NCBI GenBank assembly: GCA_015485695.1
Contig: WFTB01000012.1
Coordinates: forward strand, 1 to 43,226
DNA length: 43,226 nucleotides
Reading direction: 5' to 3'
DNA from: Patescibacteria group bacterium
GTDB lineage: Bacteria; Patescibacteriota; Patescibacteriia; WFTA01; S139-112
In this document: piece by piece, positions 27,306 through 35,000 of the stretch
Layout of the letters: every line of letters starts with the position of its first letter
Numbering within the stretch: the first letter of the stretch is position 1
The notes under the pieces: model-generated
Databases searched by the model: none
What the model was told of the DNA's origin: nothing
What the model saw: the letters and a program-made list of their open reading frames with translations, nothing else
Translations under genes and position numbers: made by a program

Positions 27306-27380
27306 TCAGGGGTAGCTCAGTGGCAGAGCAGTTGGCTGTTAACCAATTGGTCGTGGGTTCGAATCCCACCCCCTGAGCCA
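27306..27380 (+). tRNA. tRNA-Asn (anticodon GUU)
   Basis: Cloverleaf: acceptor TCAGGGG (27306-27312) with CCCCTGA (27370-27376), D arm GCTC...GAGC, anticodon loop CTGTTAA with GTT, T arm GTGGG-TTCGAAT-CCCAC, discriminator G and encoded CCA. It differs from the tRNA(CAU) gene, where CCA is not encoded. It lies at the left boundary of the mobile element; the recombinase gene overlaps its 3' half on the other strand. Confidence 0.96.
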
Positions 27381-29045
27381 TCGTGGATTAAGGGAGCCGA
27401 CAGGCTCCTTTTTCCTTTTACCTTCGCCAAAAATAGTAGGTTCGAACATGGCTTTTGCTTCTGGTACTTGTTGTAAACCCTGTTCAATAATCATGAACGG
27501 TTCTGACGCTTGAATATTGAGTTTCTTGTCTTTCAAGGTTAGGTTCGAACCAAGAGTCGCCAGTATCTCTCTTTTTGTCCGCGGGTCGCCTTTGGCAAAC
27601 CAATAACGGGCGTAACAGCAGAAGTTGAACGTCTTCTCTGTCAGCTCCAGCCATTTGTTCTGTCGTTCATTGGTATCGTTCAAAAGCTCGTGGTATTTCT
27701 GTTTCTCTTGCATGAGCTTTGCTTTTTGGGTTTTGTATTCTTCTTCGGTTATTTCGTTATTCATGCGCAGCTCCAGCAGTCTATCAAGCTTGGCTGACAA
27801 ATTAGTGTATTCTTTTTGCTGGGAGTTGAGTATTTTCTTGCGCGTGACTGTTTCTATTTGATGAGCTTTCTTTAAGTGTTTGATTGCCCATTGCAGATAT
27901 TTTTCATTGATTTGTATGCGAGCAAGATACGCGTCAATCTGCTTTTCCAGCTCTTCGGCTCGGATATGCTGTTTGCAGTTTTGGCAGTTAGGATTCTTTC
28001 GTTTGGTGCCGTGATAGTAGGTGTAGTTGAGTAGTTTGGGTTCTTTCATTTTATCAATAGCGGTGTTGCACTTTGGACACTCTTTCTTTGAAATGGTAGA
28101 AAACTTGCATTTGCAGTTTGAGCAGATGCACTGCTGCTTGACCTCGGCGGTAACTTGGGCGCCGCAGTCAGCGCAGAATATTTGGCCTGTAAAAGGAAAT
28201 TCTCTCGATTGAGACGCTGGTCTGCCTTTCCTGCCTAGAAGTATTTGCACTCTGTCAAATTCTTCTTTGGTGATCATGGGCTTATGTAGGCCTTGATGCA
28301 ATTCGCCGTTGTGTTCAAAGTAGCCGTAGTAAAAGGGGTTTGTAAAAATTTTGTAAATAGTACTGCGAGCCAAGGGTTTGCCGCCTTCTTTCTTGCGCTT
28401 GACTGTTTTGAATCCCCATTGTTCATTGACAATTTTGAGTATTTGCGGCGGTGTGTAATTGCCTGTTAGCATCAAATCCCACATCTTACGCACGAGGTCA
28501 AAACGCTCTGGGTCTGGTATGACAGTACGGTAGCATTTTTGCGCATCTGGAGTATTCAAGTATCCTGTGGGAGCCACGCCAGGCAGCCAGCCTTGTTTTA
28601 TCTTTAGCTTGAGTCCGCGCTTTACGTCCCTGCTCTTTTTGGCGCTGTCATACTGTGATTGGGAGAGCGCCATCTGTATCATCCAGATGCCTTCTGGAGT
28701 GTTTTCAAAATTGTATGACGCAAACTTCAAATCTTCAATCACGCCTGTGCGGATCAAGTAAGTAATTGTGCCCGCGTCCACTTCGTTTCTTGATAGCCTG
28801 TCTGGATGCCAGGCAATTAAGCCTGTACGCTCGCCTTTGTGTATCCGTTCTATCATCTGCGAAAAAACTGGGCGGTTGTGAGGGTTAAAAGCGCTTCTGC
28901 TTTCTTCCAGAAATTCAATATCAAGCTCTTTGAAAATCTCTGATATTCTGTCTTTTTGCGCGGGGATAGAGAGCGCCTGCCGTTCTTGTCCTTCTGAAGA
29001 CTTGCGCACATAAGCAAAATATTTGATTGTTTTTTGAGCTCTCAT
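27339..29045 (-). CDS. Large serine recombinase (integrase of the mobile element)
   Basis: 568 residues, serine recombinase layout. The resolvase domain (about 5-150) has the catalytic Ser in YVRKSSEGQERQALS (Ser16 or Ser17) and the active-site Arg region AWHPDRLSRNEVDAG. A recombinase domain (about 160-275) includes PTGYLN and TIYKIFTNPFYYGYF. A Cys-rich zinc ribbon (about 290-355) has several CxxC pairs, then comes a coiled coil (about 360-450). These enzymes integrate and excise DNA circles. The last residues RGWDSNPRPIG are antisense to tRNA-Asn and the stop lies inside the tRNA, so the frame was probably completed by integration there. Confidence 0.93.
   Translation of the reverse strand: MRAQKTIKYFAYVRKSSEGQERQALSIPAQKDRISEIFKELDIEFLEESRSAFNPHNRPVFSQMIERIHKGERTGLIAWHPDRLSRNEVDAGTITYLIRTGVIEDLKFASYNFENTPEGIWMIQMALSQSQYDSAKKSRDVKRGLKLKIKQGWLPGVAPTGYLNTPDAQKCYRTVIPDPERFDLVRKMWDLMLTGNYTPPQILKIVNEQWGFKTVKRKKEGGKPLARSTIYKIFTNPFYYGYFEHNGELHQGLHKPMITKEEFDRVQILLGRKGRPASQSREFPFTGQIFCADCGAQVTAEVKQQCICSNCKCKFSTISKKECPKCNTAIDKMKEPKLLNYTYYHGTKRKNPNCQNCKQHIRAEELEKQIDAYLARIQINEKYLQWAIKHLKKAHQIETVTRKKILNSQQKEYTNLSAKLDRLLELRMNNEITEEEYKTQKAKLMQEKQKYHELLNDTNERQNKWLELTEKTFNFCCYARYWFAKGDPRTKREILATLGSNLTLKDKKLNIQASEPFMIIEQGLQQVPEAKAMFEPTIFGEGKRKKEPVGSLNPRWLRGWDSNPRPIG
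27390..27413 (+). terminator. Terminator of tRNA-Asn
   Basis: The stem GGAGCC/GGCTCC with a GACA loop and a TTTTT tail. It lies inside the apparent 3' end of the antisense recombinase gene. Confidence 0.85.
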
Positions 29046-31470: not shown

Positions 31471-31665
31471 ATGAAAACGCCCCTGAAAACCAAGAAAGAA
31501 TTGCTGACCATCAATGAAGTAGCCGAGCTTCTGGGAGTTCATGTTGAAACCTTGAGACGGTGGGATAATGCTGGTAAGCTCAAAGCAGTCCGTATGGGCA
31601 AATACGGGCACCGCCGTTATCGCAAAGCAGATATTCAAAAACTGCTTAACAAAAAACAATTATGA
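31471..31665 (+). CDS. Excisionase/MerR-type helix-turn-helix protein
   Basis: 64 residues of the HTH_17 (excisionase) type: LLTINEVAELLGVHVETLRRWDNAGKLKAVRMGKYGHRRYRKADIQKLL. The helix-turn-helix (about 12-32) and the wing with GHRRYRKADI are complete. In integrative elements such proteins direct the recombinase to excision or regulate promoters. It is the only plus-strand regulator close to the divergent early genes of this element, which fits that role. Confidence 0.85.
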   Translation: MKTPLKTKKELLTINEVAELLGVHVETLRRWDNAGKLKAVRMGKYGHRRYRKADIQKLLNKKQL

Positions 31666-31731
31666 GATAAAGGTTATTATTACAATCCGCCTAACCCTTA
31701 AGAATTCTTTCTCAAGGTATGGCAACAAAAT

Positions 31732-31870
31732 CCTCCGCAACATAGATGGTCGCCTGACCATACTTCGTTGCGGAGGTCTATGCGGGAAACCGTATAGGAC
31801 GTTCCTGAAAGGGAGCGTCGTGGCGGGCGGCCTTTTATGTTTGGCCGTGCCACTTAAAAACCTCCGCAAC
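31732..31870 (+). ncRNA. Candidate structured leader RNA of the nuclease gene
   Basis: Four consecutive hairpins. H1: CCTCCGCAAC (31732-31741)/GTTGCGGAGG (31767-31776), enclosing ATGGTC/GACCAT. H2: 31779-31785 with 31790-31796, capped by GAAA. H3: 31798-31806 with 31811-31819, capped by GAAA. H4: 31820-31832 with 31843-31853, with a small bulge. A second copy of CCTCCGCAAC (31861-31870) ends four bases before the nuclease ATG and can compete for GTTGCGGAGG. The structure is seen; regulation is inference. Confidence 0.6.
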
Positions 31871-31874
31871 GCTT

Positions 31875-32846
31875 ATGAAAAAACTACTCAAAATCATTCT
31901 TTTTGTCTTTATTGCTTTATTTGTTCTTATTCTGATAATCCCGACTGATGATAACTCTAATGAAACACAACCAACTCCCAAGCAAGAGCAAACAGAGCCA
32001 AGCAATAAAACTCAATCTGTCTCTCAAGAGCAGGAAATGGTTAATGAGCAGGAGCCAGAACAAGAGCTAGTTCAAGATCAATCAGCCACATCAGAATCTC
32101 CAGAAACAGCCAGCCCTGCCGCTCAAACTCAACCTCAAAAAGAAGAGTATGCAACCAATGAAAATGAAACAGATAAATCAGCGGAGCTGTATCTGGTGAC
32201 CCGCGTCATAGACGGCGATACGATTGAGGTAGAGATAAACGGGAGCAAAGAAAAACTCCGTCTCATAGGCATAGACACTCCTGAAACTGTTGACCCGCGG
32301 AAACCTGTTGAATGCTTTGGCAAAGAAGCGTCAAGCAAAATGAAGTCTTTAGTTGAAGGTAAACAAGTCCGTCTTGAAGCTGACACTAGTCAAGGCGATC
32401 GCGGCAAGTACGGACGCCTCTTGCGCTATGTCTTTCTCCCTGATGGCACGTTTGTCAATGATCTGATGATACGGCAGGGGTATGCGTATGAGTATACTTA
32501 TCGAATCCCATATCAGTATCAGAGCCAATTCAAACAAGCTGAACAAGAAGCCAGAGCTAAGAAGCGCGGTCTCTGGGATGATGGAGTGTGTGAGGATACC
32601 AACTCATCGTCTCAAACCGAAACGATCCAGGAACCAATGACTCTTACTACACAACCGCAATCCCAAGTAGAGCAAACTCCTACCACCACATCCTGCGACT
32701 GCTCTGGTAATCTTTACAACTGCAGCGATTTCAAAACTCATCAAGAAGCACAAGCCGTTTTTGACTGCTGTATGGCGCAGATAGGCAAGGACATCCATAA
32801 GCTAGATGGGAATAATGATGGCATGGCGTGTGAGAGCTTGCCGTGA
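31875..32846 (+). CDS. Membrane-anchored or secreted thermonuclease (SNase) with excalibur motif
   Basis: 323 residues. One hydrophobic helix (about 3-22), then a Gln/Glu/Ser/Thr-rich spacer of about 85 residues. The staphylococcal-nuclease domain (about 104-240) has RVIDGDTIEVEI, LRLIGIDTPE (metal Asp, catalytic Arg), and YGRLLRYVF...MIRQGYAY. After a second spacer comes a Cys-containing C-terminal excalibur motif ending LDGNNDGMACESLP (calcium-binding DxDxDG-type). It should cut DNA/RNA outside the membrane, possibly to gain nucleotides or act on competitors. Translation starts just after the repeat of the leader RNA. Confidence 0.92.
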   Translation: MKKLLKIILFVFIALFVLILIIPTDDNSNETQPTPKQEQTEPSNKTQSVSQEQEMVNEQEPEQELVQDQSATSESPETASPAAQTQPQKEEYATNENETDKSAELYLVTRVIDGDTIEVEINGSKEKLRLIGIDTPETVDPRKPVECFGKEASSKMKSLVEGKQVRLEADTSQGDRGKYGRLLRYVFLPDGTFVNDLMIRQGYAYEYTYRIPYQYQSQFKQAEQEARAKKRGLWDDGVCEDTNSSSQTETIQEPMTLTTQPQSQVEQTPTTTSCDCSGNLYNCSDFKTHQEAQAVFDCCMAQIGKDIHKLDGNNDGMACESLP

Positions 32847-32907
32847 TTATTCTGTGTTGTTTGAACTACACTCAAAGCAAAAATTGGTTAGGCAACTACG
32901 CTAAGCT

Positions 32908-32936
32908 TGACATTTTTTGACAAATAATCTATAATG
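32908..32936 (+). promoter_or_regulatory. Consensus sigma-70 promoter of the small membrane protein gene
   Basis: Perfect TTGACA and TATAAT separated by 17 bases. It is the only fully consensus promoter I found in the window. The predicted start is near 32943. Confidence 0.93.
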
Positions 32937-32942
32937 TGGTGT

Positions 32943-33060
32943 TACAAACAAGTCCCCTTGGTGGCTCATTCAGAAGGTGCACCTTCTGTTTGTTGCTTCA
33001 CCCCGCCAAGGGGACGTTCATTAAAAATCCCTGTGGGTGCAGGGGATAAAAATGGAGGTG
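32943..33060 (+). ncRNA. Folded 5' leader of the small membrane protein gene
   Basis: A 13-bp outer stem (32952-32964 with 33003-33015, one G-U pair) encloses the perfect palindrome CAGAAGGTGCACCTTCTG (32971-32988). CAAACA (945-950) can instead pair with TGTTTG (987-992 of the 32,000s). A smaller hairpin CCCTG/CAGGG (33029-33044) precedes the strong ribosome-binding site GGAGGTG (33054-33060). The leader may control translation; no known riboswitch class is recognised. Confidence 0.5.
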
Positions 33061-33599: not shown

Positions 33600-35000
33600 A
33601 TGGACATACAAAAAGACGAACTCACAAAAGAAGAAGATAGAGGCAAAAAGTATCGTCTAGCTTTTCTCAATCACCCAGTAGAGGATGACGATGTAGATTA
33701 CAAATCTGCTAACCTTTTCGTTGGGAAAGGGGATGACTTTTCCGTATCTCTTGTAAAAGATATTCTGGGCATGGCAAACTCTGGCGGCGGTTTTATTGTC
33801 ATCGGTTTTAAGGAGGACACAGCAAAACGAATCGTGCCGCAAAAACCTATTGATGAGATGGTTCTGGCTTCTTACGAAACCACTAAACTTTCACAGTTTG
33901 TTAATCATTATACTGCTGGTGCTGATCGCGTACGTCTAACTGTCCATAAAGACGAACTGGACGGACAGCACTATCCTGTCATAGAGATTTTTGGTTTTGA
34001 GAAAAGGCCTTTTTTCTGCCGCAGTACAGTATTAAGTCAAAATAGCAAGAAGACTTTATTGAAAGAGGGTGTGTTGTATATTCGTGTCCCAGGGGCGCAA
34101 ATAGTTGAAGTAGCTAGTCCTGATGACTGGGAGAGGTTGATAGACATTTGTGTTGAAAGGCGTAGAGGCGAGTTTCTCAAAAGCTTTAACTCCCTTTTAC
34201 AGGAAACTGGTTTATCTTCCAAGCAACTTGCGTCAGAATCTGTCAGTGACTCTCAAAAAAAAGAAATCGAGCAATGGGAGAAAAAAAATAGAGATGAGGT
34301 AAAAAAAAATCTGAAAGTAAATGGTTTTAAGGACGATGCTTTTTTTGAATCTACCCACTATTTAGTAGAGTCAAAGAAAAACTGGTCTTCTCCAGACCTG
34401 CTAGAAGTTGCTCGAAAAAGCGAACTGCGTAATACTGGCTGGCCGATAGGTATTGTTCCTCGTGGGGATGAAAGCGCAAAACCAATGGAGGACGGCGTTA
34501 AGGCGATAATGGCCAGCTCGGATACTTTTGACTATTGGTATTTGAGAAAAAATGGTAGCTACTATTTTGCTAGAGTGTATCGTGAGGATACAATGCAGAA
34601 AAGACAAAGTGATGATGGCAGGCGAGTTGATAATAAACCAATTTTGTATTTTGAAGTCCGCATCTGGCGTATCGCCGAGATTATTCTGCACTGTACAACA
34701 CTATACCGTCAACTTGGAGTTGCTTCAACTGAAAAAGTACATATCAAAATCACTCATAACGGCATTGCTGGCAGGACATTGACAGCGCGCGATCCTGATA
34801 GAAGCCTCATCGGGACTTATACTGCTGGCGCAAAAAAGTCTGTGTGGGAGACTGAAGCGTCTTTGGATAAGCTCAACGCGTTTTATGGTGACTTTGTTAT
34901 GGAGGCTTCTGCCAAGCTTTTTGAGATGTTTGACTTCCTAAAACTTGAAGAAAGTGTTTACAAGGGAATTATCAGCGAATTCTTGAATTCTAGGTTATGA
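33600..35000 (+). CDS. AlbA_2/Schlafen-domain putative nucleic-acid-binding protein
   Basis: 466 residues. The N-terminal AlbA_2 (divergent AAA-4, PF04326) domain covers about 30-165: VKDILGMANSGGGFIVIGFKED (the conserved A-N-s-x-G-G-x-i-x-i-G core), then VHKDELDGQHYPVIEIFG, and LYIRVPGAQ. The C-terminal 290 residues are unrecognised and mixed alpha/beta. Schlafen-like AlbA_2 proteins bind or cut tRNA and are found in transcription regulators and in anti-phage systems. In an integrated element such a gene is a candidate defence or abortive-infection factor; that is inference. Confidence 0.75.
   Translation: MDIQKDELTKEEDRGKKYRLAFLNHPVEDDDVDYKSANLFVGKGDDFSVSLVKDILGMANSGGGFIVIGFKEDTAKRIVPQKPIDEMVLASYETTKLSQFVNHYTAGADRVRLTVHKDELDGQHYPVIEIFGFEKRPFFCRSTVLSQNSKKTLLKEGVLYIRVPGAQIVEVASPDDWERLIDICVERRRGEFLKSFNSLLQETGLSSKQLASESVSDSQKKEIEQWEKKNRDEVKKNLKVNGFKDDAFFESTHYLVESKKNWSSPDLLEVARKSELRNTGWPIGIVPRGDESAKPMEDGVKAIMASSDTFDYWYLRKNGSYYFARVYREDTMQKRQSDDGRRVDNKPILYFEVRIWRIAEIILHCTTLYRQLGVASTEKVHIKITHNGIAGRTLTARDPDRSLIGTYTAGAKKSVWETEASLDKLNAFYGDFVMEASAKLFEMFDFLKLEESVYKGIISEFLNSRL

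Follow-up and report, generated by a model that had tools for sequence, protein, structure and literature searches.

The nuclease locus and its LOOT RNA

The window, which is the whole stretch of 43,226 nucleotides that was analysed, carries on its forward strand a gene for a nuclease with SNase and Excalibur domains. A small HTH_17/MerR-like DNA-binding gene lies upstream of it, and the region between the two genes is highly structured, with an RNA fold of -81 kcal/mol (z -7.0 against dinucleotide shuffles). The region is a full-length match to LOOT RNA, Rfam RF03000 (cmscan; 74 bits against a gathering score of 46.4, model positions 1-121 of 121). The first-pass annotation, which recognized no known class here and proposed a new one, is therefore wrong on this point. 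The hallmarks of the LOOT model are all present in the Rfam alignment and the fold, namely P1 with its CCUAA(A)C and AUGG loop, an A-rich linker, P3, and the P4 and P5 hairpins with GAAA loops (Table 1).

The four hairpins described in that annotation, two of them with GAAA loops, correspond to P3, P4, P5 and P6, to which the P1 hairpin can be added. The exact repeat that it placed before the nuclease start is also found: the two copies, D1 and D2, lie 129 nt apart, and GCTT separates the second copy from the ATG. As claimed, the 3′ strand of P3 (I) is able to pair with either copy, over 10 nt with D1 and over 12 nt with D2, which makes the second copy the better partner (31766-31777 with 31860-31871). 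The GGAGG and the five-codon ORF at 31780 are likewise present in the window. However, their role is unsupported, and we rejected them as a regulatory element because they occur in 1 of 238 LOOT loci.

Table 1. Features of the LOOT leader and its flanking genes in the window.
Feature	Position	Strand	Basis or remark
Small HTH_17/MerR-like DNA-binding gene, directly upstream of the leader	31471-31665	+	Pfam HTH_17, 2e-15
ACAA motif upstream of P1	31682-31685	+	Candidate partner of UUGU-like bases after A2; possible closing helix of the whole RNA
LOOT RNA (P1, A-rich linker, P3, P4, P5)	31688-31819	+	cmscan, RF03000
P1 hairpin, conserved CCUAAC ... AUGGC internal loop	31689-31723	+	Rfam alignment; CCUAA kept across loci
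D1, P3 5′ strand, first copy of CCTCCGCAAC	31732-31741	+	Sequence, fold
Strand A (GGUCGCCU), P3 apical loop, pseudoknot partner of A2	31748-31755	+	Loop:A2 pairing across loci; window strands by sequence reading
I, P3 3′ strand (GTTGCGGAGG), partner of D1 or D2	31767-31776	+	Sequence, fold
P4 hairpin, GAAA loop; contains the five-codon ORF	31778-31797	+	Fold
P5 hairpin, GAAA loop	31798-31819	+	Fold
P6 hairpin, alternative pairing of the A2 region; subset of LOOT RNAs only	31820-31853	+	Fold
Strand A2 (GGGCGGCC), pseudoknot partner of A, not covered by the Rfam model; U-rich run follows	31825-31832	+	Loop:A2 comparison
D2, second copy of CCTCCGCAAC, 4 nt 5′ of ATG; 12-nt complement of I at 31860-31871	31861-31870	+	Sequence, locus comparison
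Nuclease gene (ATG at 31875), SNase and Excalibur domains, N-terminal hydrophobic segment by inspection	31875-32846	+	Pfam SNase 1.2e-26, Excalibur 2e-5

LOOT is a published yet uncharacterised RNA family. It was brought into Rfam 14 from the Zasha Weinberg Database, as an RNA derived from metagenomes (PMC7779021), was singled out for 28 cross-covariations in a structure-prediction paper (PMC7657543), and is listed with two additional covarying pairs in Rfam 15 (PMC11701678). We found no functional study, proposed function or mechanism for it in the literature.

The source genome (0.98 Mb) contains a single LOOT copy. In two partly overlapping samples of 380 genomes, LOOT is found in 85 genomes (same class) and 83 genomes (same phylum) at 1-7 copies per genome, so that roughly one in five of the sampled Patescibacteria genomes carries it. 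The spread is patchy; 75 of 147 genomes of one family carry LOOT, and none of the 14 control genomes does. Pattern hits outside Patescibacteria were discounted, since the 17-base pattern is loose and only 43 of 116 genome stretches were parsed as LOOT; one of these (L188) bears an archaeal label that is possibly a binning error. Wide viral occurrence was not seen, as only one of the 66 viral contigs with a match to the P1 pattern was parsed as LOOT. One contig from a viral collection (L358:2929-3070) contains a LOOT RNA with P3 and the pseudoknot described below, located 5′ of a zinc-ribbon protein gene. Two contigs of one genome begin with a LOOT copy at base 1 (G471:C25:1-121 and G471:C88:1-121), as if the assembly broke at repeated LOOT sequence. 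At another locus (L088; G486:C3:17612-18107), two LOOT RNAs lie 376 nt apart, each before a small related protein (MPKFKIDFWFDQ...), in an arrangement that resembles an array of leader-gene units.

Leader position and pseudoknot of LOOT RNAs

LOOT RNAs were compared in a set of 154 loci and a second, independent one of 88 loci, all from a single other family (>240 copies), with the helices of the extended RNA assigned by our own script. The dominant downstream ORF lies on the LOOT strand at 146 of the 151 loci with enough sequence. Because the next gene is so regularly on the same strand, LOOT, which Rfam types as an sRNA, looks from its genomic position like a cis-acting mRNA leader and not a free sRNA. 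At 127 of 150 loci, the stretch 40-160 nt after P3 contains the ATG of an ORF with 60 codons or more, compared with about 20% at random positions.

The genes behind the leader are diverse. Pfam assigns the 133 downstream proteins to zinc-ribbon membrane proteins, SNase, DNA methylases, DUF4352 and other DUFs, and many are without a match. No common pathway, metabolite or signal was seen among these proteins, which are too varied to suggest one signal.

Pairing of the P3 apical loop (strand A) with a strand farther downstream (A2) is seen in 91% of 150 loci, with a mean of 10.5 bp, compared with 16.5% when the strands are swapped between loci. A2 is located about 30-75 nt after P3. The complementarity of A and A2 is kept while their sequences differ between loci, and together with P3 the pairing forms a pseudoknot. 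By this comparison, A:A2 is a structural element outside the Rfam model, whose 121 positions end at P5. Unlike the sRNA that Rfam describes, the structure reaches A2 and, in part of the LOOT RNAs, also D2 at the start codon. In most loci A2 is followed by a U-rich run, which is often short. The A2 region can also pair with downstream sequence to form a hairpin in 28% of loci, against 10% with swapped strands, and P6 of the window is of this kind. At only these frequencies, P6 was rejected as a universal third strand.

Further bases flank the extended RNA. ACAA is present at most 22 nt upstream of P1 at 176 of 238 loci (40 in the control stretch), and UUGU-like bases follow A2 at 207 of 238 loci (against 43). 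Judged from these motifs, the two could form a closing helix of the whole LOOT RNA.

The repeated strand at the start codon

To score D2 across loci, D1 (the 5′ arm of P3) and the sequence complementary to I (its 3′ arm) were used to find the best ungapped match in the 110 nt that contain the start codon, and a score of at least 9 was taken as D2. D2 is present in 29 of 154 loci against 0.27 expected, and in 22 of 88 loci of the independent set against 0.5 expected, where the expected counts come from swapping arms between loci, which keeps composition and position but not phylogeny. The repeat is all-or-none, with scores of 3-7 at or below chance among the 154 loci. A decayed insertion duplication was rejected on the absence of these intermediate scores. 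The sequence of D1 varies from locus to locus in the same 154 loci, and the 51 D2 loci contain 41 distinct arms; some arms are common to several loci, so that the 51 cases are not all independent. The distinct-arm count and the independent set reduce the concern about phylogeny without removing it.

D2 is positioned relative to the start codon. In 48 of 49 measured loci, the position of the AUG relative to the D2 end is within -8 to +9 nt. D2 is located within the first codons in two genomes (G251 and G714), and overlaps the AUG in two loci. In one genome (G707), several LOOT RNAs differ in their arms, and each of them has a D2 of its own. Where genomes have an arm in common, their D2 copies are 94% identical, whereas the upstream spacer and the following coding sequence are each 32% identical, which is near random. 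The same arm and D2 also occur with different downstream genes.

The G-U positions of P3 separate the two possible templates of D2. At seven such positions, one of them beside a mismatch, D2 equals the complement of I in five, D1 in one and neither in one. Because D2 follows the complement of I and not D1 in five of the seven cases, this comparison argues for a selected I:D2 pairing. In two near-complete genomes (G391 and G002), the 10-mer is confined to D1/I/D2 triples, which places the pairing in cis. The earlier proposal of a regulatory RNA with a repeated switching strand at the start codon thus stands in its main part: the repeat recurs with unrelated sequences in ~20-25% of LOOT RNAs, lies by the AUG and tracks I, while the new class and a role of the GGAGG and five-codon ORF fall away. 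It also survives the comparison with homologues that had been suggested as a check, in which lost stems or a recombination site were looked for and which did not refute it.

An HTH_17 homologue lies directly upstream of LOOT at 10 of 154 loci, and 8 of the 10, the window included, have D2 (Fisher p 5e-5). Several of these loci lead into restriction-modification genes. HTH_17, LOOT and D2 are followed by a Type III-like methylase and a ResIII-domain restriction subunit at three loci (L117:5227-9077, L124:5235-9184 and L081:9813-14783) and by a D12 methylase and a PDDEXK nuclease gene at a fourth (L058:3246-4697), and from their gene content all four are likely to be complete restriction-modification operons under a LOOT leader. 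At L049, a DNA methylase lies downstream of HTH_17-LOOT. The window leader and those of four of these methylase loci can be aligned across the end of the HTH gene and LOOT. Some LOOT copies are thus tied to restriction-modification operons, where the timing of expression matters.

A proposed strand-exchange switch and its alternatives

The D1:I and I:D2 arrangements of the window are isoenergetic, at -87.0 and -87.4 kcal/mol when the pseudoknot is ignored. With the same simplification, the two states of the 51 D2 loci differ by a median of 0.5 kcal/mol (range -9 to +12). Family identity, position in cis, pseudoknot pairing and the D2 copies that track I are established at the level of sequence comparison. 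We consider it fairly probable that the window region is a LOOT leader of the downstream mRNA, in which the D2 subset would act as a strand-exchange translational switch in Patescibacteria. The core of the leader would be a pseudoknot composed of P3 (D1:I) and A:A2. Pairing of I with D1 would leave the start codon open and translation on, while pairing of I with D2 would cover the start-codon region and presumably turn translation off. In cells, I would swap D1 for D2; A:A2 should be compatible with either partner of I, and both arrangements would be pseudoknots. Because the two states are close in energy, a small input could set the outcome, which may be a ligand or protein on the pseudoknot, the ribosome itself, or the folding order during transcription.

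Such a switch resembles translational riboswitch platforms, in which one strand has two mutually exclusive partners and one pairing covers the ribosome-binding region. As in riboswitches, LOOT occupies the 5′ leader of the gene that it would control, and a conserved core with exclusive pairing that alters access to the start codon is found, by sequence and energy, in the D2 subset only. Unlike these platforms, LOOT has no known ligand, its two partner strands are exact copies, most members are without a second copy, and the 133 downstream proteins share neither a pathway nor one metabolite or signal. Erm-type translational attenuators have segments 1 and 3 as competing partners of segment 2 near the start codon. 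LOOT would likewise have two segments competing for one near a start codon, but it lacks a conserved leader peptide and has a pseudoknotted core.

The leader may instead control transcription, if the A:A2 helix and the U-run, or extra terminators in some loci, stop RNA polymerase, with D2 added secondarily. Of the alternatives, attenuation has the most in its favour, and it could also operate alongside the switch, given that U-runs follow the A2 helix in most loci and a hairpin-plus-T-run lies between LOOT and the gene in some loci that have no D2; the alternative partners of A2, A and P6, are also consistent with it. However, the shortness of many U-runs speaks against it, and it leaves unexplained why D2 is an exact copy placed at the AUG and why it tracks I. 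We regard it as possible but doubtful.

It is unlikely that LOOT is a stand-alone sRNA of the Rfam type, which would end at the U-run after A2 and act in trans, D2 being one target site next door. The U-rich run and a weak terminator-like match at 31817-31831 would suit such an RNA, as would an 11-nt copy of the P3 arm in the first codons of an opposite-strand gene ~625 nt upstream of one locus (L373; G102:C49), a single case of a possible target. Nevertheless, most other copies in G102 look like coding sequence, the run is merely UUUGUGUU in many loci and makes a poor terminator, and the next gene is regularly on the same strand with its start at a fixed distance. Trans targets were rejected on the absence of other sites in G391 and G002, where the 10-mer is restricted to LOOT triples, and on one near-miss in the window's own genome.

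An ermC-type attenuator, in which ribosomes on a leader peptide from the conserved P1 AUG cover D1 and free I for D2, is very unlikely. The window does contain an 8-codon ORF from this AUG (MATKSSAT) with its stop 4 nt after D1, but in the D2 loci the P1-AUG frame does not stay open through D1 more often than the other two do, and the P1 AUG is sometimes ACG. A conserved leader peptide was rejected by these frame controls. The least probable reading, which we disfavour, is a DNA feature, i.e., a recombination or insertion site with direct repeats flanking a mobile piece: the window's excisionase-like HTH gene and its serine recombinase next to a tRNA, the patchy, 1-7-copy distribution and the same arm and D2 before different genes would fit it, but D2 follows the complement of I over D1 by five to one, is fixed relative to the AUG even inside codons, and shows no tail of decayed copies, with conserved stems on both sides of the repeats.

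Strand exchange cannot be the whole function of LOOT, because ~75-80% of LOOT RNAs have no D2 in the same leader position; the common function must then lie in the core, which possibly serves sensing or transcription control, with D2 as one type of output. Only tentatively do we view LOOT as an orphan sensor-RNA class of Patescibacteria, whose pseudoknotted core would respond to a common signal, govern scattered accessory genes including complete restriction-modification operons, and use duplicate-strand exchange at the start codon. The comparison thus gives LOOT an mRNA-leader position, the missing pseudoknot strand and, for a subset, a concrete candidate switching mechanism, which could serve as a natural model for building a balanced RNA switch.

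Three further features lie near the LOOT-nuclease locus in the window. Upstream, the end of a serine recombinase gene (27306-29045) overlaps a tRNA gene, which suggests an integrated element, and no duplicate of the tRNA end (att) was found within the window. Downstream, positions 33600-34997 encode a Schlafen AlbA_2 domain protein. Between the nuclease and this gene, positions 32907-33020 contain a perfect sigma-70-like promoter (TTGACA, 17 nt, TATAAT) and nested inverted repeats (AAGTCCCCTTGG...CCAAGGGGAC and CAGAAGGTGCACCTTCTG), followed by a small membrane-protein gene, and constitute another possible structured leader.
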